In this document: positions 27,520 to 38,335 of the stretch, piece after piece
Layout: each line of letters opens with the position of its first letter
Numbering within the stretch: the stretch's first letter is position 1
Assembly: GCA_018883755.1 (NCBI GenBank)
Contig: JAHLFR010000007.1
Location: 1 to 64,000 of the forward strand
Reading direction: 5' to 3'
Source of the DNA: Candidatus Methanocorpusculum faecipullorum
GTDB lineage: Archaea > Halobacteriota > Methanomicrobia > Methanomicrobiales > Methanocorpusculaceae
Length of the DNA stretch: 64,000 nt
Position numbers and translations under genes: made by a program
Notes under the pieces: generated by a model
Database searches by the model: none
Told to the model about the DNA's origin: nothing
The model's input: only the letters and a program-made list of their open reading frames with translations

Positions 27520-28608
27520 TTATCCAAGTTCATCCCAATCATTTTCGTTTCTGCGGCGAATAACTATAATTGCACCAACAATTACCAAAACGGCAACAAC
27601 GGCGATAACAATGTACATTGCATATGGGCCCACTGCATCAAGTGGGGACTTCTGCGCTTCTTCCCAGAGGGCATTTGATGTCTCAAGCGTACTGGTCGAT
27701 TTGTTCAGTGCCTCAAGTGACTGACTCTTCAAGGAGCTGGATACAGAACTAGGCAATGCATCATATGCAGATTTTGCAGTGTTGTAGAGATTCTGCGCAG
27801 TCTCTTTAGACGTGGACAAAAGGATTACTCTGTTGTCATTCCATCCTTTTGCATTCAGGTTTGCGATGTTCTGTTCGATTGCATCGAGATTACTCTTTGC
27901 CTTGGTCAGAGCGGCACTGACCATCTCTTTTTCTGCTTCCACTAAAGCTGCACTTGCGGAAACAAGTTCACTGGACGCAGTGGCAACGTCATTTTTATGA
28001 TTGTCAGCAGCATCCAGATAATCCCGTGCAGTTTCCAGTTTGGAAATAGCGGTCGAAACATCAGCACCCTGCTTGGAAAGCTCGGTAATTTGGGAATCCA
28101 GTTCATTGATCGCGTTTTGAACATCCTCAATCTGATCGGGAATATCATCCGGATTATACACCATCTGTTTGTCAGATTGATAACTGCTGATAACGGTATT
28201 TGAATCAGTGATCTGTTCTACTTTTATAACTGTAATTTCCATCCCAGCTTTGTTCTCTGGGACCTTTCCATCAAGATAAATAGTGAGTTTCACATCCTGG
28301 GGCAGATCTGAAAGACTATATCCATCAAAATAACGCTTTCCTGCAGGGAACTCAGTAATTGGAGTACCATCTAGGGAAGTGAGAGATCCTGTCCATACTG
28401 CAGAGGTAAGATCAGTAGTAAGATCGATCCGATCGACATCAGAATTTGCAGCAAAGGTGATCGTCATGGTTGCGGAGACCGAATCCCCCGGCATCAAGCT
28501 TCCCGACGGATTGATGTTTGCTTCAGTATTACTGTTCCAAGCACTTACAGTACCGACCAGTGCGGCACAGAACAGAAGAGCAATCAAAAAATATGTGATT
28601 TTTTTCAT
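27520..28608 (-). CDS. Secreted, C-terminally membrane-anchored helical protein in the CetZ operon
   Basis: 362 residues. A signal peptide MKKITYFLIALLFCAALVG with a cleavage-like VSA is followed by a beta-rich domain (about 23-140), a long helical coiled-coil region (about 145-320: QIEDVQNAINELDSQITEL and following), one transmembrane helix (about 332-352) and a basic cytoplasmic tail RRRNENDWDELG. The bulk would face outside with the tail inside. The family is not recognised. GAGGTG lies 4 nt before ATG 28608 and the gene starts 8 nt after the CetZ stop, so they form one operon. Confidence 0.75.
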   Translation of the reverse strand: MKKITYFLIALLFCAALVGTVSAWNSNTEANINPSGSLMPGDSVSATMTITFAANSDVDRIDLTTDLTSAVWTGSLTSLDGTPITEFPAGKRYFDGYSLSDLPQDVKLTIYLDGKVPENKAGMEITVIKVEQITDSNTVISSYQSDKQMVYNPDDIPDQIEDVQNAINELDSQITELSKQGADVSTAISKLETARDYLDAADNHKNDVATASSELVSASAALVEAEKEMVSAALTKAKSNLDAIEQNIANLNAKGWNDNRVILLSTSKETAQNLYNTAKSAYDALPSSVSSSLKSQSLEALNKSTSTLETSNALWEEAQKSPLDAVGPYAMYIVIAVVAVLVIVGAIIVIRRRNENDWDELG

Positions 28609-28616
28609 ATAACACC

Positions 28617-29825
28617 TCATTCAAAGAGTGGATCGATCCCGTCATCAAACATAGCAGTATGGGACCGCTCACGGGATCGTACAACCTCCTCCTTTGCCTC
28701 TTTTGCAAGCTCCATCAGTTCACGAATACGTGGAGCATCACCAATACTTGCAAGCAGAACAACTGCCGCCACATATCCGCTGTCCACCGGATAATCACCA
28801 CCACGAACCTCAACGCCTGCAATATTTTCTTCAACCCAGCTCTTAGACTTCTCAACGCCTTTTCTATCAAGTTCACTTGGCGGACCTGCAACCAGTACAA
28901 GAGCACGCTCTGCAGTTGAGTAGTCGCAGGGAAGCGTAAGACGGCCTAACATTGCACGGCGGACCAAGCCAATGATCTTTGCAGATTTATCCTCACCTGA
29001 TGCAATATCGACATGTGGTTCGGCTTTCTTTTCCTTCTTTCCAAGAATACTGGAGAGAAGACCTCCATTGTTGTCCTTCTTTGAAGACGGCTTTCCCCCA
29101 CCCTTGACGACTGGAATAGCCTCACTGATGGCATAACCAACTGATGAAATACCTCCGCCACGGAGGGTGTTGATGATTTCACTGGAGTCAACAACCATTT
29201 CACCAACGCCATATTTACCGACCTCTCCTGCACGGAACAGAACACCAAACCGGCGGACGATTTCTTCATTGAGACGCTCATATGCACTCTTTACACTTTC
29301 ACCATCATTTTTCCAAGCACTGTTGTCGAATACGATGACATTGTCCGCTTCGTTAACCAGCGTTGAAAGACTGCGTGCAGCGTTTAAAGAATAGAGACGA
29401 CCTTCTTCAGGTGCAGGAATAATACCTACTGCGTATACCGGCTCGCGATAGATACGCTTTAAGTGACGACAGAGAACCGGGGATCCTCCAGATCCCGTTC
29501 CCCCACCAAGACCGGCACACACAACGAATGCATCGATGTCATGCGTACCGCGGCGATCGATTGCACTAATAATAGTGTCAATCTCATCTGCTGCTACTTT
29601 TGCACCGGTCACGTTATCAGTACCGACACCGTGGCCTTTAACCATTGTCTGACCGATCAGCAGGCGATCTTCCATGGGAATGTTCTTAATTCCCATCAGA
29701 TCGGTTCGGGCAGTATTGATAACAATACCGCGGAAGCTTGTAGATCCTAACTTTCTGTCCTGTGCGAGGAACATATCCACGAGCTTCCCTCCTGCCTGTC
29801 CGAATCCTATAAAAAATACCCGCAT
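28617..29825 (-). CDS. CetZ-type tubulin/FtsZ superfamily GTPase
   Basis: 402 residues. The tubulin signature GLGGGTGSGGS is at 105-115. The N-terminal MRVFFIGFGQAGGKLVD nucleotide loop and the loop NTARTDL are as in CetZ, which differ from FtsZ1/2. A Lys/Gly-rich insertion (about 241-272, KGGGKPSSKKDNNGG and KKEKK) interrupts the C-terminal domain. CetZ proteins act in cell shape and surface organisation rather than division. It is the first gene of an operon with a secreted coiled-coil protein. ATG at 29825 has AAGGTG 9 nt upstream. Confidence 0.9.
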   Translation of the reverse strand: MRVFFIGFGQAGGKLVDMFLAQDRKLGSTSFRGIVINTARTDLMGIKNIPMEDRLLIGQTMVKGHGVGTDNVTGAKVAADEIDTIISAIDRRGTHDIDAFVVCAGLGGGTGSGGSPVLCRHLKRIYREPVYAVGIIPAPEEGRLYSLNAARSLSTLVNEADNVIVFDNSAWKNDGESVKSAYERLNEEIVRRFGVLFRAGEVGKYGVGEMVVDSSEIINTLRGGGISSVGYAISEAIPVVKGGGKPSSKKDNNGGLLSSILGKKEKKAEPHVDIASGEDKSAKIIGLVRRAMLGRLTLPCDYSTAERALVLVAGPPSELDRKGVEKSKSWVEENIAGVEVRGGDYPVDSGYVAAVVLLASIGDAPRIRELMELAKEAKEEVVRSRERSHTAMFDDGIDPLFE

Positions 29826-29946: not shown

Positions 29947-31194
29947 ATGAAGATCGGTATTCTCGGTGCAGGCCTGACAGGACTTGCCGCTGCCCTTCGT
30001 CTGGCAAAAGCAGGTGATGTCGTTGTATTTGAGAAGAATGAAATGGCGGGGGGTTGTCTTGCTTCCAAACAATATGGATCTTATATTCTGGAGACCCTGT
30101 ATCACCACTGTTTCTCTGGCGATACCGAGCTGTTTTCTCTTTTAAAAGAACTCGACCTCAAAGACGATCTGATCTGGTTGAAAGGATCAACTGGATATTA
30201 TATGAACGGAAAACTGCATCCTCTCACCACACCCATGGAAATTTTCCGTTATCCCTGCCTGAGTTTTTTTCAAAAGGTACGACTCGGGATGTTCGTCTTA
30301 AGTTCCCGCAAAATTGACATGGCAGTACTTGACAACATCACCGCAAAGGAGTATCTCTACGAAAAAGTCGGTGAAGATATCTATAATGTATTTTTTGCTC
30401 CGCTTCTTGCAAGCAAGTTTGGGCCGATGAAGGATGAGGTGTCTGCAGCATGGCTGATGAGCAGAATTGCAATAAGATCTGATCGCGGTGCAGAGGGAGA
30501 GCGGCTTGGATACCTGAAAGGAGGGTGGCACCGGCTGATCGATTCTATGGTGCATCGGTTGAAAGAGGCCGGTGCAGATCTGAGGTTTTCCACCCCGGTA
30601 CAGAGACTCCAATTATTGGATGGAAAATGGATCATCAACGGAGAGGAATTTGATGCAGTTATTTCCACTCTTCCACCACAGATAACAATGTCTTTGATGA
30701 ACGAAGAGACGGCAGAAAAGTTCTCCCTACCCATGTTACCATACCAAGGAGCGGCTTGTATGACGTTGGGACTCGCCAAGGATCCGTCAGCAGGAATTTA
30801 CTGGACCAATATGGGAGATCCCGCACCGTACGGGGCGGTGGTTGTTCACACGAACTTTGTCCCTTATGACTGGTACGGCGAACATGTAGTGTATCTCGCC
30901 TCGTACTTCAAAGACAACCCAGCAACCGATCTCAAAGAGAAGATGATTGATGATTTCTGTGACAGGTTTGGAATAGGAAAAGAGATAATTCATCACGCCG
31001 ACCTGTACATTGACAAGTTCGCGGGGCCCGTATATGTGACCGGTTATCGGAACATGATACCCAATACCGATGCCGGACACAATCTGTTCATTGCTGGCAT
31101 GTACTCAGTGGAGAACTATCCCGAACGGAGCATGGAAGGTTCTGTTCGTGCAGGACACCGCGTGGCTGCCCTGCTTAAGGAGAAAATTTCGTGA
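29947..31194 (+). CDS. FAD-dependent oxidoreductase/amine-oxidase-like (protoporphyrinogen oxidase type)
   Basis: 415 residues. The FAD dinucleotide loop is at the N-terminus: GILGAGLTGLAAALRLAKAG, with the ribose-binding Glu in VVFEKNEMAGG. Late residues NLFIAGMYSVENYPERSMEG match the C-terminal FAD contact of the PPO/amine oxidase group. Its neighbours are sugar transfer genes, so it may act on a sugar nucleotide or lipid precursor rather than a porphyrin; that is inference. ATG at 29947 has AGGTGT about 11 nt upstream. It leads the five-gene plus-strand locus. Confidence 0.82.
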   Translation: MKIGILGAGLTGLAAALRLAKAGDVVVFEKNEMAGGCLASKQYGSYILETLYHHCFSGDTELFSLLKELDLKDDLIWLKGSTGYYMNGKLHPLTTPMEIFRYPCLSFFQKVRLGMFVLSSRKIDMAVLDNITAKEYLYEKVGEDIYNVFFAPLLASKFGPMKDEVSAAWLMSRIAIRSDRGAEGERLGYLKGGWHRLIDSMVHRLKEAGADLRFSTPVQRLQLLDGKWIINGEEFDAVISTLPPQITMSLMNEETAEKFSLPMLPYQGAACMTLGLAKDPSAGIYWTNMGDPAPYGAVVVHTNFVPYDWYGEHVVYLASYFKDNPATDLKEKMIDDFCDRFGIGKEIIHHADLYIDKFAGPVYVTGYRNMIPNTDAGHNLFIAGMYSVENYPERSMEGSVRAGHRVAALLKEKIS

Positions 31195-31907
31195 ATCCCG
31201 TACAAATAACCGTAGTGTTGCCTGTCTATAATGATGTTGAGGCATTACGATCTGCAATCCCAAAATCGCTTGAAGCGTTGACTGAGTTCGGAAAAAGTTT
31301 TGAACTGATTGTCGCCGAGGATGGGAGTTCCGACGGGAGCCGCGAGTTAGTTGAGGAATGGGAACGGAAAGATCCGCGTGTCCGTCTGCTGCACAGCGAC
31401 GAACGGCAGGGACGGGGACGGGCACTGAACCGTGCACTTGCGGAGTCAAATGGCAAAATATTCTGTTACTATGACGTGGACCTTGCAACAGACATCAAAC
31501 ATCTTCCTGAACTCCTGACTCGAATCGAAGATGGTGCAGCAGTTGCGACCGGATCGCGTTTGATGCCGGAGAGTAAAATTATCCGGAGCGGTGACCGGGA
31601 GTTTGCGAGCCGCAGTTACAATACACTGGTCCGGCTGTTTCTTGGAAGCCGTCTCCGGGATCATCAGTGCGGATTCAAGGCATACCGGGCAGATGTGCTG
31701 CGGGAACTGGTTCCAAAGATCCGTGCGCCTCACTGGTTCTGGGATACCGAGTCAGTGGTACTTGCACAGCGTGCAGGACTCCGCGTGGACGAATTTCCGG
31801 TTGTTTGGACACAGGGACCGGGAACAACAGTCCGGTTCAAGGACGTGTACGGGATGGGAATGGATATTCTAAAAATGTGGTGGCGGCTACATGTGGAAAA
31901 AAATTAG
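31191..31907 (+). CDS. GT2 glycosyltransferase, dolichyl-phosphate sugar synthase type (paralogue A)
   Basis: 238 residues of GT-A fold. VLPVYNDVEALRSAI at about 6-20 begins the nucleotide-binding sheet. VAEDGSSDGSRE and YYDVDLATD carry the metal-binding Asp residues, with DHQCGFKAYRAD and FWDTESVVLAQRAG after. The last features are typical of the DPM1/ALG5 group that makes polyprenyl-phosphate sugars. GTG start at 31191 overlaps the preceding stop by 4 nt, with AAGGAG 8 nt upstream. It is paralogous to the gene at 34875. Confidence 0.88.
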   Translation: MNPVQITVVLPVYNDVEALRSAIPKSLEALTEFGKSFELIVAEDGSSDGSRELVEEWERKDPRVRLLHSDERQGRGRALNRALAESNGKIFCYYDVDLATDIKHLPELLTRIEDGAAVATGSRLMPESKIIRSGDREFASRSYNTLVRLFLGSRLRDHQCGFKAYRADVLRELVPKIRAPHWFWDTESVVLAQRAGLRVDEFPVVWTQGPGTTVRFKDVYGMGMDILKMWWRLHVEKN

Positions 31908-32871
31908 TGCTGTACTTATCCCCACTCTTATTGCTGCTGCACTGATTGTGGTTATGCTTGCAAGAGTCTGGGATGATCTGCTGATCGCAGTCCAACATTT
32001 GGTTCCCGCCTACCTTATCGGAGCGATTCTGATCTGTCTTGCCGCATGGTACCTGCGTGGCTGGCGGTACCAGTATATCCTAAAGAAATTAGGGACGCAA
32101 ATAGGTCTTAACTTTTCCACCGCCTGCATTTATGTATCCCAAACAGCGAATCTGATCATTCCCGCACGGCTGGGTGACTTTGTTCGGCTCTTTATTCTAA
32201 AACACGAGAAAGAAACGCCTTATACAAACAGTTTCACCTCAGTTGTCGCAGAGCGTGTGTATGATGTTATCATCATCGCAGTTCTTGGACTATTTGCATT
32301 GCCAATGCTGATTAGCCTCGTTCCCGCATGGTTTGTCTGGATGATCGTTTTCGTTCTGGGAGCAGGTGCAGTATTTTTCCTTTTTCTTCTTCTCTCACGC
32401 AGACTCCATGCGGAAAATAAAATCTTCAAAAAAATTTTGGAGGTGTTAGATCAGCTCAGACAGGTGTCTTCAACGCCAGCATCACTTGCAGCGTTATCAC
32501 TTTCATCTGCTATCATCTGGATGATGGATGTGACCATCTGTTATCTTGTCTCGCTGATGTTTGGAGTGACAATCCCGTTTATGCTGGTACTGCTTGCAAT
32601 TGTGATCGGAAATCTTGTGAAAGCGGTACCGATCACTCCCGGTGGTATTGGAACGTATGAACTTGCACTCGTAATTACGTTTGAGATAGGCGGAGTGCCT
32701 GCGGCGACGGCTACTCTGATCGCAGTGGTAGATCATCTGATCAAAAATCTTGTTACCCTCGCTGGAGGAGTGGTCTCCCTGTACTACTTCGGCGACTGGG
32801 CAGTGTCACTGTTAAAACGGTTGTTCCATGAGGATGCAAAAAAACTGAAGGAGGAGCATGGTTCCTCCTGA
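31891..32871 (+). CDS. LPG synthase/UPF0104-type membrane protein, putative flippase
   Basis: 326 residues with about eight transmembrane helices. The family motif YVSQTANLIIPARLGDFVRL (about 71-90) and the late GNLVKAVPITPGGIGTYELA region place it with UPF0104/lysylphosphatidylglycerol-synthase transmembrane proteins. AglR-like relatives act with dolichyl-phosphate mannose in haloarchaea. It starts 17 nt inside the end of the GT2 gene (GGTGG 6 nt before ATG), so the two are coupled. Flipping of a polyprenyl-phosphate sugar is the likely role. Confidence 0.82.
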   Translation: MWKKISAVLIPTLIAAALIVVMLARVWDDLLIAVQHLVPAYLIGAILICLAAWYLRGWRYQYILKKLGTQIGLNFSTACIYVSQTANLIIPARLGDFVRLFILKHEKETPYTNSFTSVVAERVYDVIIIAVLGLFALPMLISLVPAWFVWMIVFVLGAGAVFFLFLLLSRRLHAENKIFKKILEVLDQLRQVSSTPASLAALSLSSAIIWMMDVTICYLVSLMFGVTIPFMLVLLAIVIGNLVKAVPITPGGIGTYELALVITFEIGGVPAATATLIAVVDHLIKNLVTLAGGVVSLYYFGDWAVSLLKRLFHEDAKKLKEEHGSS

Positions 32872-34861
32872 AGTACAGATACTGACGGTCGTTCTCTGGC
32901 TGATTGTGATGAAGTTCTGCCAGATGACCACCTATCCGTATCTAAAACCTGCGGTGGGCAACCTTTCATATGGTCTTGCCTACCCGTTTTCAATTCTTGT
33001 ACTGACCTTTGTCACTTGGTATCTTGGTCTGGTTGGTCTACCGGTACAGCTTGCCCTGTTAGTATTTGTAACTTCAGGAGCGTATGCCTTTGTCTCAAAA
33101 AAGTATGATAAAACAGAGATACTTAAGAACCTGAAATGGGATCTGGTGTTCTTCGGGGCATTTGCACTGATGTTGATCTCACGGTTCCTGACACCAGGAA
33201 TTATTCCAAGCGGAGAGAAGTTTATGGACGCTGCATTTCTGGGAAGCATTATGCTGAGCCCAACAGTTACGCCGCTGGATCCCTGGTATGCAGGCGGAGA
33301 ACTGTCCATCTATTATTACCTCGGCCATTGGATGTGCGGAGTGCTTGGTATTCTTTCCAACGGTACACCTACAGTTGTGTTCAATCTGATGCTGCCGACC
33401 GTGTTTGCGCTTGCGGCTGTGTCAGCATATGCAATAGGTGTTCTCCTGTTAAAGCGTCATCAGTGGATATCAATGCTTGTCCTAATCCTCCCCAACGCTG
33501 CTCTAATCTGGCATACTATTGTTGGTGGAGGAGCTGTCGGGATCTGGTGGGCATCAACACGGGTGATCGAGAATACAATCAACGAGTATCCAATGTTTTC
33601 GTTTCTCTGGGGAGATCCCCATGCCCATGTACTTGGATGCTTTAACCAGTTGTTCTTCCTCTGCTTGCTTGCAGTGCTGCTGGTAAGATGGAGTACACTG
33701 TCCAGAACAGGGAAATATCTGCTTTGCGTAATGCTTGCGTTATCACTTGGGACAATGCCCGCAATGAACTCATGGGATGTGATGGTGTACGCCAGTGTGT
33801 ATCTCGTTACAGCAGCAGTTTTGTGGATTAAACAGGGGCACAGTCTCCATGACGCTGTGCCGTTAGCCCTGGTCCCAGTACTTTCACTTGCATCCTATGC
33901 GCCGTTCCTGTACACAATGCTGTCTGGCGGAGGCACCAGTGTACAGGGATTTTTCCTGGTAACAACTCCGTCACCGTTCAATGAGTTTCTTGGAGTGTAC
34001 CTGTTCTTTGTAGCAGTGTTTGTGGTTTTCTGTTTCTCTGTCCTGAAAAAATATCCGTGGCTGATTGCAGTGCCAGTGATATTTGCGATCGCCGGATATG
34101 CTAGTGCAGGTGTTGCACTGTTTTGTATTCTGTTGCTGATTGGAAAGCGAAGTTCATCCCCGGAGGTATTGTTTGGAATACTTGGAATGGTGATCGTGTT
34201 CCTGATGGAGTTCATTTATCTGAAGGACTATATGGGAGATGTAAACTACCGGATGAACACGGTGTTTAAGTTTGGATTCTGTGCATGGTTCATGCTGGGA
34301 ACATCCATTCTTCTGATGATTGGAAAATATGCAGAGAACCGGTTTGCAGAGATTCCAAAAGGTCGTGCTGTTGCGATTGCTGCAATAATTTTCGTGGTAC
34401 TTGCAACACTTATCGGATGCTGCGGGATCCAGTTAGGTTACCCAGGAGGAACACTGGACGGTGCAGCATGGCTGGAAAGCCATCATCCAGCAGATGCAGC
34501 GGGTATTGCGTATCTTGCAGGTATCGCATCTCCCGGAGATATCGTCGTAGAGGCGGCAGATGGATCGTATGCCTACAACGGGCGTGTATCAGCAATGACT
34601 GGGCTTCCCACGATTGTTGGCTGGGTGGGACATGAATCTGGGTGGCGAAGTGGTGTCGGTGATGCAGGAACACGGTGGAGCGATGTTCGAATGATCTACG
34701 AAGATCCATCCAAGACGATTTCTTTGATGGATCAGTACGGTGCAAAATATCTCTTTGTTGGAGATGTAGAACAGGAGTTGTACACGGTGAACCTGCCTGA
34801 TGAAGGATTAACAGAGATATTTACAGCAGACGGTGTGAGTATTTATCAACGCAACAACTAA
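32858..34861 (+). CDS. DUF2298 (YYY-type) large membrane protein, possible GT-C glycosyltransferase
   Basis: 667 residues with about a dozen or more transmembrane helices and a short soluble tail. The landmark GGELSIYYYLGHWMCG (about 147-162, with the YYY) and WGDPHAHVLGCFNQ belong to DUF2298. This group has GT-C-like topology; the catalytic role is unproven. Start ATG 32858 overlaps the flippase gene by 14 nt with AGGAGG upstream. The C-terminal part (from about 530) has a non-membrane GYPGGTLDGAAWL stretch that may lie outside. Confidence 0.8.
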   Translation: MVPPEVQILTVVLWLIVMKFCQMTTYPYLKPAVGNLSYGLAYPFSILVLTFVTWYLGLVGLPVQLALLVFVTSGAYAFVSKKYDKTEILKNLKWDLVFFGAFALMLISRFLTPGIIPSGEKFMDAAFLGSIMLSPTVTPLDPWYAGGELSIYYYLGHWMCGVLGILSNGTPTVVFNLMLPTVFALAAVSAYAIGVLLLKRHQWISMLVLILPNAALIWHTIVGGGAVGIWWASTRVIENTINEYPMFSFLWGDPHAHVLGCFNQLFFLCLLAVLLVRWSTLSRTGKYLLCVMLALSLGTMPAMNSWDVMVYASVYLVTAAVLWIKQGHSLHDAVPLALVPVLSLASYAPFLYTMLSGGGTSVQGFFLVTTPSPFNEFLGVYLFFVAVFVVFCFSVLKKYPWLIAVPVIFAIAGYASAGVALFCILLLIGKRSSSPEVLFGILGMVIVFLMEFIYLKDYMGDVNYRMNTVFKFGFCAWFMLGTSILLMIGKYAENRFAEIPKGRAVAIAAIIFVVLATLIGCCGIQLGYPGGTLDGAAWLESHHPADAAGIAYLAGIASPGDIVVEAADGSYAYNGRVSAMTGLPTIVGWVGHESGWRSGVGDAGTRWSDVRMIYEDPSKTISLMDQYGAKYLFVGDVEQELYTVNLPDEGLTEIFTADGVSIYQRNN

Positions 34862-34874
34862 CGAGTTAGGAAGA

Positions 34875-35606
34875 ATGGATCATCCAGTACTTACTGTAGT
34901 AATTCCTGTCTATAATGATGCAGCTGCTCTACGCGAGGCAGTACCCGCATCAATAGAGATACTGGAAGGGCTCGGGCTGTCGTTTGAGATGATCCTCTGT
35001 GAGGATGCAAGTACCGACGGAAGCCGTGAGGTCGCCGAAACATTTGCAGCAACAGACAACCGTATCAAACTCAACCACAGTGATGTCCGCAGAGGAAAAG
35101 GAGGAGCACTCTCAGATGCACTTGCCCAGTCCCGCGGTGACATCTTTTGTTTTTATGATGTGGACCTCTCAACAGATCTTGCAGACCTGCACACCCTCAT
35201 CGAGAAAATCCAGGCGGGTGCAGACATTGCAGTTGGATCACGGTTCCTTGAAGAAAGTACCGTACTGCGTTCAGGCGATCGTGAGATGACCAGTGTTGGA
35301 TTCAATACAATGGTACATCTGCTCCTTGGAAGCAATATCCGTGATCATCAGTGCGGGTTTAAAGCATTTCACCGTGACCGACTAGCAAAACTGATTCCGT
35401 ATGTGCAGGCGCGCGGTTGGACCTGGGACACTGAGGTTCTCGCAATTGGACAAAGATGCGGTTATACCATTGAAGAGATACCAATCACCTGGACAGAGGG
35501 TGAAAAGACGAATATCAGAACCAGAGACATTTTTTCCATGGGTTGGGCGGTACTGGGACTTGCATGGAGGATACGCATTATTGGCAGGTATCCGAAGGAT
35601 GTCTAA
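34875..35606 (+). CDS. GT2 glycosyltransferase, dolichyl-phosphate sugar synthase type (paralogue B)
   Basis: 243 residues, the same architecture as the gene at 31191: VVIPVYNDAAALREAV, CEDASTDGSREVA, FYDVDLSTDLAD, DHQCGFKAFHRD and WTWDTEVLAIGQRCG. Paralogues at the two ends of the DUF2298/flippase unit suggest two related donors or a duplicated locus. It begins 13 nt after the DUF2298 stop, with AGGA just upstream. It ends the cluster; the L7Ae promoter follows. Confidence 0.88.
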   Translation: MDHPVLTVVIPVYNDAAALREAVPASIEILEGLGLSFEMILCEDASTDGSREVAETFAATDNRIKLNHSDVRRGKGGALSDALAQSRGDIFCFYDVDLSTDLADLHTLIEKIQAGADIAVGSRFLEESTVLRSGDREMTSVGFNTMVHLLLGSNIRDHQCGFKAFHRDRLAKLIPYVQARGWTWDTEVLAIGQRCGYTIEEIPITWTEGEKTNIRTRDIFSMGWAVLGLAWRIRIIGRYPKDV

Positions 35607-37117: not shown

Positions 37118-38335
37118 TTATTTTCTCAGATAGTCATAAGCGGAAAGTAATGCCTTTACACCTTCGCCAACGGAAGATGCAATCTGTTTTGCTGCAACCG
37201 ATGTAGAATCACCGGCCGCAAAGAATCCAGCAACGCTCGTTTTACAGTCAATATCCACAATGATCTCTTTCTCTGCATTCATGGGAGCAAAACCCTCAAA
37301 CATTGCAGTGTTTGGATCAAGACCGACACCGAGGAATGCGCCATCCACTTTGAGCTTCTTCTCAGGAGACTGCCGTAAAATGCTGGAAAGGAATCCCTTC
37401 TTTTGTTCCGGTTGAGCATCAACTGGCAGCATCTTGACATATTCAAGCATTTGGCCGCCGCCAAACTCGGTGATCGTAAATCCGGTATGGAAGGTGACAT
37501 TTTTCATTTCAGTCAGACGGCCGATAAGGACGGCATCCGCATCAAGTGGAGTTGCAGAGATAACATGCACCTGTGCGGCAATTCCTGCCATCTCGATTGC
37601 CATATCCATAGCAGTGTTGCCGCCGCCAAGGATTGCAACCGTTTTACCTTTATACATCGGACCGTCACAGGTGGTACAGACAGCAATCCCCTTTCCCAGG
37701 TACTCAGCTTCACCTGGAGCCCCAGAGAGACGCGGGGATCTCCCGGTCGCGGCAATCACTGCTTTTGCAGTATATTCCTTTTCGGAAAGTGTAGAGATAG
37801 TGAAGAGGCCATTATCCTTAGTAATTGATAGACCGACATCCTCAATGATTACAGCACCTGCATCACGGGCATGCTGCGCGAATTTCTGCATGAGATCATC
37901 GCCCGGAATATCAGGAATGCCAGGATAGTTCTCAACCGAACTACTCTTAGTTGCCATGCCACCTACGGCACCCCCAATAACAAGGGTTTCAAGGCCTTTC
38001 CGTCCCGCATACATCGCAGCAGAGAGTCCTGCTGCACCAGAACCGATAATGATCAGTTCGTGATCTCGCGGAACATCTTTTGTCTCATCAACAGGTGAAG
38101 GAGCATCCAGAAGCATTGCAACTTTCATGAGGTCATCACCGATGACGATCTGTCCATCTATGATCGTTACGGGAACACCACGCTGACCGGTAAGCTCGAT
38201 CATTTTGTTTGCAGCTGCTTCGTCCTCTCCCACGTCATAATTAGTGTAGGGGACGTGCTGTTTGTCCAGAAAACCCTTAAGATTCCGGCAGTGTGGACAT
38301 CCAGTCAGAGAGTAAACAATCACTTCATGAGACAT
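37118..38335 (-). CDS. Glutaredoxin-thioredoxin reductase fusion
   Basis: 405 residues. Residues 1-80 form a glutaredoxin/NrdH-type domain (VIVYSLTGCPHCRNL; Cys13, Cys16). From about 92 a thioredoxin-reductase-like flavoprotein follows with FAD loop IIGSGAAGLSAAMYAG, redox pair CTTC (Cys220, Cys223), NAD loop ILGGGNTAMD and C-terminal FAAGDSTSVAAKQI. The fused dithiol domain probably receives electrons from the reductase in cis. An EQKKGFLSSILRQSPEKK insertion lies in the NAD domain. It stands apart from its neighbours. Confidence 0.9.
   Translation of the reverse strand: MSHEVIVYSLTGCPHCRNLKGFLDKQHVPYTNYDVGEDEAAANKMIELTGQRGVPVTIIDGQIVIGDDLMKVAMLLDAPSPVDETKDVPRDHELIIIGSGAAGLSAAMYAGRKGLETLVIGGAVGGMATKSSSVENYPGIPDIPGDDLMQKFAQHARDAGAVIIEDVGLSITKDNGLFTISTLSEKEYTAKAVIAATGRSPRLSGAPGEAEYLGKGIAVCTTCDGPMYKGKTVAILGGGNTAMDMAIEMAGIAAQVHVISATPLDADAVLIGRLTEMKNVTFHTGFTITEFGGGQMLEYVKMLPVDAQPEQKKGFLSSILRQSPEKKLKVDGAFLGVGLDPNTAMFEGFAPMNAEKEIIVDIDCKTSVAGFFAAGDSTSVAAKQIASSVGEGVKALLSAYDYLRK

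Follow-up and report, generated by a model that had tools for sequence, protein, structure and literature searches.

What process is served by the tightly packed genes at positions 29947-35606 of a 64,000-nucleotide stretch of the archaeon Candidatus Methanocorpusculum faecipullorum (contig JAHLFR010000007.1, positions 1 to 64,000, hereafter the window; assembly GCA_018883755.1, 1.25 Mb and 80% complete)? A sequence-only reading had placed five overlapping genes here, encoding a flavin adenine dinucleotide (FAD)-dependent oxidoreductase, a GT2 glycosyltransferase, a UPF0104 flippase-like protein, a DUF2298 membrane protein and a second GT2, and had proposed that a polyprenyl-phosphate sugar is made inside the cell, flipped outward and used by DUF2298. 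Open reading frames and profile matches recovered all five genes at these positions and in these families. We assign a probability of roughly 0.6 to the view that the first four constitute a dedicated extracytoplasmic glycosylation cassette, which works through a lipid-phosphate sugar and includes a donor-tailoring flavoenzyme. The in silico support for this view comprises conservation of the operon, co-inheritance and co-loss of its genes, the predicted GT-C fold of the window's DUF2298 protein and AglD-type residues in the GT2.

All five genes are on the forward strand. The first gene of the operon (29947..31194) encodes the oxidoreductase (FADox), the proposed donor-tailoring enzyme; it belongs to the amine-oxidase superfamily (PF01593, 107 bits) and scores 449 bits against the curated cut-off of 252 for NF005560/PRK07233, a family listed as 'hypothetical protein'. 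It is followed by GT2a (31191..31907; PF00535, 98.7 bits), a polyprenyl-phosphate-sugar synthase-like GT2 that corresponds to the catalytic domain of AglD, separated from the membrane half of that protein, and by a UPF0104/LPG_synthase_TM integral membrane protein (31891..32871; PF03706, 201 bits; TIGR00374, 110 bits, likewise above cut-off), the proposed flippase for the lipid-linked sugar. The fourth gene (32858..34861; PF10060, 313 bits; TIGR03662, 571 bits against a cut-off of 300) encodes the DUF2298/TIGR03662 (YYY) membrane protein, the proposed extracytoplasmic GT-C glycosyltransferase, whose closest named relative is 88% identical and comes from Methanocorpusculum petauri. Successive overlaps of 4, 17 and 14 bp join these four genes. 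The second GT2, GT2b (34875..35606; PF00535, 91 bits), begins after a 13-bp gap.

The order FADox-GT2a-UPF0104-DUF2298 was kept in 35 of 35 loci across the order Methanomicrobiales (families f1-f6), as well as in those named Methanomicrobiales contigs that were long enough for the operon. Because the same gene order recurs in every one of the 35 loci, the four-gene arrangement is not due to chance. Its flanks are also constant across the order, with a divergent CetZ gene on one side and L7Ae on the other. GT2b was found behind DUF2298 only in the window and 6 further loci, all from the window's sub-lineage of the genus. What had been read as a five-gene locus is therefore one conserved operon of four genes, to which GT2b is accessory.

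The same families are inherited together well beyond the order. Our phylum sample comprised 296 genomes, 229 of them outside the order, for which strong matches were hand-picked from the listed E-values. Across the 296, TIGR03662 exceeded its cut-off in 170, NF005560 in 176 and TIGR03663, a family named 'flippase activity-associated protein Agl23', in 170. Among the 229, DUF2298 and FADox occurred together in 104 genomes, 119 had neither and 6 had one without the other (Fisher p 7e-58, a value that ignores shared ancestry); when Agl23 was included, 101 genomes possessed all three and 119 possessed none. Switches in step were also seen within families. One genus of family f8 carried both DUF2298 and FADox and the other listed genera neither; one genus of f22 lacked DUF2298 and had FADox at most below cut-off or borderline, the other genera carrying both; f16 included a genus with both and a genus with neither; and f10 was mixed.

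Losses followed the same pattern. Five related genomes lacked the whole operon, leaving CetZ to face L7Ae with a few hundred bp between them, and a sixth retained decayed remnants of all four operon genes. Agl23 was absent from the same five genomes and present only as fragments in the sixth. Since all six retained STT3/AglB, the core N-glycosylation enzyme is independent of the cassette. In addition, GT2a is fused to UPF0104 beside DUF2298 in Methanosarcina (2 loci), other Methanosarcinales (2 loci) and Archaeoglobaceae (one locus). A failure of these genes to co-occur would have spoken against the sequence-only reading; instead, the core genes strongly co-occur and vanish together. Taken together, co-occurrence, joint loss and fusion or re-association mark the four genes as one functional unit.

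We infer the enzymatic steps, the flipping and the outward topology as follows. GT2a would charge polyprenyl (dolichyl) phosphate with one sugar at the cytoplasmic face of the membrane. UPF0104, together with a separately encoded Agl23 in most genomes, would carry the lipid-linked sugar across, and DUF2298, acting as a GT-C enzyme, would hand it to a surface glycan or glycoprotein. FADox would tailor the donor, most likely the lipid-phosphate(-sugar) and less likely a nucleotide sugar, and in the lineage of the window GT2b may supply another lipid-linked sugar, as a second one or as an alternative. The scheme of charging, flipping and use by DUF2298 proposed earlier is upheld in part: the predicted GT-C fold, the AglD-type GT2 and the co-loss favor it, but its parts have changed, with Agl23, unlinked or nearby, joining the four genes and GT2b falling outside them.

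The nearest solved relatives of GT2a are ArnC-type undecaprenyl-phosphate transferases (ArnC, E 3.9e-16) and the Pyrococcus dolichyl-phosphate-mannose synthase (P. furiosus, E 2.7e-12). With one gap, D95/D97, R123, D157 and D185 of GT2a align with D110/D112, R139, D173 and D201 of AglD, for which the positions and functions of the catalytic residues are published (PMC2877612); the DXD motif, the conserved Arg/Asp and the catalytic Asp of the AglD GT2 domain are all present. AglD is a GT2-UPF0104 fusion, and the UPF0104 family shares homology with the flippase domain of MprF as well as with the C-terminal domain of AglD (PMC5898192). UPF0104 itself gave no significant match in a sequence search of the PDB. 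The resemblance to the haloarchaeal AglD/AglR/AglS end step noted in the earlier reading, a step of N-glycosylation in Haloferax volcanii, holds for the overall logic, in which a GT2 charges dolichyl phosphate with one sugar inside, the sugar is brought to the outside and a transferase in the membrane makes use of it, and also for the catalytic residues of GT2a and its fusion to UPF0104 in relatives. It fails in other respects: GT2 and UPF0104 are separate in the window, the operon contains no Wzx-type AglR flippase, the transferase would be DUF2298, and FADox is added. The novel product suggested in the earlier reading is a conjecture.

A narrower form of the cassette view, with which its probability overlaps, takes the genes to be the archaeal N-glycan end step itself, equivalent to AglD/AglR/AglS and adding one terminal sugar to the N-glycan transferred by AglB. 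The AglD catalytic residues of GT2a and the occurrence of the AglD-like fusion in relatives are consistent with this proposal, but the absence of an AglR-type flippase from the operon is not, and the retention of STT3/AglB in genomes without the cassette fits an optional addition while providing no proof of an N-glycan target. We regard this narrower form as a tentative possibility only.

The AlphaFold2 model of the oxidoreductase has a predicted local distance difference test (pLDDT) score of 94.6. Glycines G7, G9 and G12 of the FAD motif and 30 polar or aromatic positions are invariant in 47 homologues, the invariant residues including K157, R173, R177, R180, H53, H54 and H301. The substrate probably bears phosphate and may be an isoprenoid. 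A Foldseek search recovered the whole amine-oxidase superfamily and picked out no single reaction. Among named proteins, its best relatives have isoprenoids or porphyrins as substrates: HpnE, phytoene desaturase and protoporphyrinogen oxidase. Membership in each of these three families was rejected, the scores lying far under the curated cut-offs (78.6 of 283, 47.7 of 569 and 41.2 of 97.9 bits, respectively). Membership among the UDP-galactopyranose mutases was likewise rejected, as that domain is absent from the Pfam matches of the oxidoreductase at E <= 0.01.

Gene neighborhoods connect FADox to glycosylation. In 7 genomes it adjoins Agl23 on the same strand at a distance of about 240-360 bp, and in one genome that lacks DUF2298 and a strong Agl23 match (G307, locus L254) its immediate neighbors are a GT2-UPF0104 fusion on one side and, on the other, a membrane protein with a borderline PMT_2 match. 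A lack of any link between glycosylation and either the oxidoreductase or DUF2298 would have counted against the sequence-only reading, but FADox adjoins Agl23 or an AglD-like fusion in several families. In a further genome, which has NF005560 and no strong DUF2298, FADox overlaps a PMT_2-like gene near a match to the D-glucuronyl C5-epimerase domain (L339:7164-9263).

The cassette model in its other parts would also accommodate the proposal that FADox acts on a nucleotide sugar, as a mutase- or oxidase-like enzyme making an unusual sugar for GT2a, such that the novelty would lie in the sugar rather than in the lipid. UDP-galactopyranose mutases do occur among the sequence and structure matches of the oxidoreductase, and its many invariant basic and polar residues would suit a phosphate-bearing substrate. 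The lack of the mutase domain at the Pfam threshold given above and the isoprenoid or porphyrin substrates of the best named relatives point the other way, and we consider a nucleotide-sugar enzyme possible but doubtful.

The final step of the cassette would depend on DUF2298. The AlphaFold2 model of the window's protein (pLDDT 93.6; predicted template modelling score 0.94) indicates a GT-C fold. When it was compared with the PDB by Foldseek, the top nine matches were all GT-C enzymes; the mycobacterial arabinosyltransferase AftA was the closest solved fold (E 4e-7), and human STT3, PglB, AftD, Pmt4 and Pmt1-2 were also among the nine. Matches to proteins other than GT-C enzymes, namely transporters, ranked below these with a probability of about 0.2 or less. 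By sequence, DUF2298 belongs to no characterized GT-C family, matching only PF10060/TIGR03662, and in contrast to their structural likeness it has no detectable sequence relation to AftA or AftD. Residues E120, Y153, Y154, H255, E451, N467, K471 and E638 are invariant in 61 homologues, and D141 is conserved in 60 of the 61. The search for GT-C acidic residues suggested by the earlier reading thus found E120, D141, E451 and E638, although the loop that carries E120 and D141 (residues 107-160) is placed outside by hydropathy and charge only.

Besides the shared ancestry ignored by the p-values, several points weigh against the cassette as we read it. The GT-C fold comes from one model, that of the window's DUF2298, more distant members being placed by shared family membership; the GT-C matches are remote, with template modelling scores of about 0.25-0.5 and large root-mean-square deviations; a sequence search of the PDB with DUF2298 gave no significant match; and membrane topology was judged by hydropathy only. 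FADox and DUF2298 are unlinked genes in haloarchaea. Finally, a GT-C-like fold is no proof of transfer, because Agl23, which matches PMT families, is reported as a flippase: the Haloarcula hispanica protein, a putative Glc/Gal-P-Dol flippase, moves the lipid-linked oligosaccharide M5GN2-PP-Dol across liposome membranes (PMC11182771).

Agl23 is a sixth partner of the system. It lies a few kb upstream in most Methanomicrobiales, and in relatives of the window's genus it is some 43-71 kb away, a distance that did not prevent its loss or decay in the six genomes without an intact operon. A profile search with TIGR03663 did not find it in the window's genome, an absence that may reflect the incomplete assembly. 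In the Agl22/Agl23 pathway of Haloarcula hispanica, Agl23 is tied to use of a hexose-P-Dol (PMC11182771); unlike the system described here, that pathway includes neither DUF2298 nor the oxidoreductase in its open-access description.

Since Agl23 also resembles transferases, DUF2298 might instead translocate the lipid-linked sugar, alone or with Agl23, and leave the transfer to Agl23 or another GT-C enzyme; this is the strongest competing reading of the protein. The flippase activity reported for Agl23 and the almost perfect co-occurrence of Agl23 and DUF2298 lend it some weight. However, the operon already contains a flippase candidate in UPF0104, and DUF2298 has invariant acidic residues and, at its C-terminus, a non-membrane domain, both as in GT-C transferases, making a translocase role improbable. 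Least credible, and largely refuted, is the notion that the genes are mere ancestral neighbors with no shared function: CetZ and L7Ae are also conserved across Methanomicrobiales with no likely link, but the four operon genes were lost as a block from between an intact CetZ and L7Ae, co-occur where they are unlinked, and are fused or re-associated in distant families.

A functional link between the operon and the divergent CetZ was rejected. Genomes from which the operon has been cleanly lost still carry CetZ and L7Ae, and we therefore regard both as neighbors only. In the window, CetZ (a tubulin) forms a divergent pair with a coiled-coil protein that has a signal-like N-terminus and a C-terminal membrane anchor (27520-29825); throughout Methanomicrobiales this pair stands next to the operon, and it persists where the operon has been lost.

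The logic of the glycosylation cassette parallels that of known systems built from other parts, both AglD/AglR/AglS (PMC3871713) and the Gtr-type (GtrA/GtrB/GtrC) and GT136 pentofuranose systems. The latter have three components, a polyprenyl-phosphate-sugar synthase, a flippase and a GT-C transferase, and can also include enzymes that modify the lipid-linked sugar, such as DprE1/E2 (PMC11127046). The window has the corresponding linked set of synthase, flippase candidate and GT-C protein by family and fold, with predicted activities. It differs in that the flippase candidate is a UPF0104 protein (PF03706/TIGR00374) instead of GtrA/SMR or MATE, the GT-C protein is DUF2298 and the flavoenzyme is of the amine-oxidase superfamily. 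DprE1 belongs to a different flavoprotein family. Tailoring of lipid-linked sugars by an FAD enzyme from outside that family would, if true, come as a surprise.

More speculatively, FADox might catalyze an undescribed FAD-dependent reaction on the polyprenyl-phosphate sugar or its isoprenoid tail, with DUF2298 as the founding member of a new family of GT-C enzymes acting on this donor and both, along with Agl23, forming a surface-glycosylation pathway across Halobacteriota and some bacteria, including Chloroflexota; we think it unlikely that all of this holds. The bacterial extension rests on two genomes checked, both with NF005560 above cut-off; on a Chloroflexi contig the NF005560 gene is unlinked to DUF2298. 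Widespread as they are, the families DUF2298 (TIGR03662) and PRK07233 have had no function assigned, and the link to an AglD-type module and Agl23 gives each a specific, testable role. In the open-access literature, TIGR03662, TIGR03663 and PRK07233 go unmentioned and DUF2298 appears in passing in two papers only, subscription papers having been outside the search, such that a prior description is possible. Control searches found family members above cut-off in two control genomes, which for TIGR03662 are those of Haloferax volcanii and Methanosarcina acetivorans, both genetically tractable.

The operon also varies in its accessory genes. GT2a and GT2b are 50% identical over 234 residues, and a recent tandem duplication was rejected by their placement in a tree, some branches of which are long: GT2b branches outside a GT2a clade of 25 rows (support 100/100), to which the fused genes of Methanosarcina and Archaeoglobaceae also belong. 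Its phylogeny therefore makes GT2b an older paralogue that was taken into the operon. A relative of GT2b (57%) adjoins a second DUF2298 in one locus (L071), and several loci of the order have a second DUF2298, elsewhere or in tandem. Tandem duplicates inside the operon (L158:6983-11074 and 5 other loci) suggest a diversified acceptor or sugar. In one genome DUF2298 is split into several frames with the other operon genes intact (L328:4894-6900), either a young pseudogene or an assembly error. In three Methanocorpusculum-like genomes, an FkbM-family methyltransferase (PF05050) is inserted between UPF0104 and DUF2298 (L032:6888-7841 and 2 other loci) and could be a further glycan-modifying enzyme, for example one that O-methylates a sugar in these strains. 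Downstream of the operon, at 37118-38335 of the window, the translation shows a glutaredoxin-like domain (CPHC) apparently fused to a thioredoxin-reductase-like flavoprotein (CTTC).

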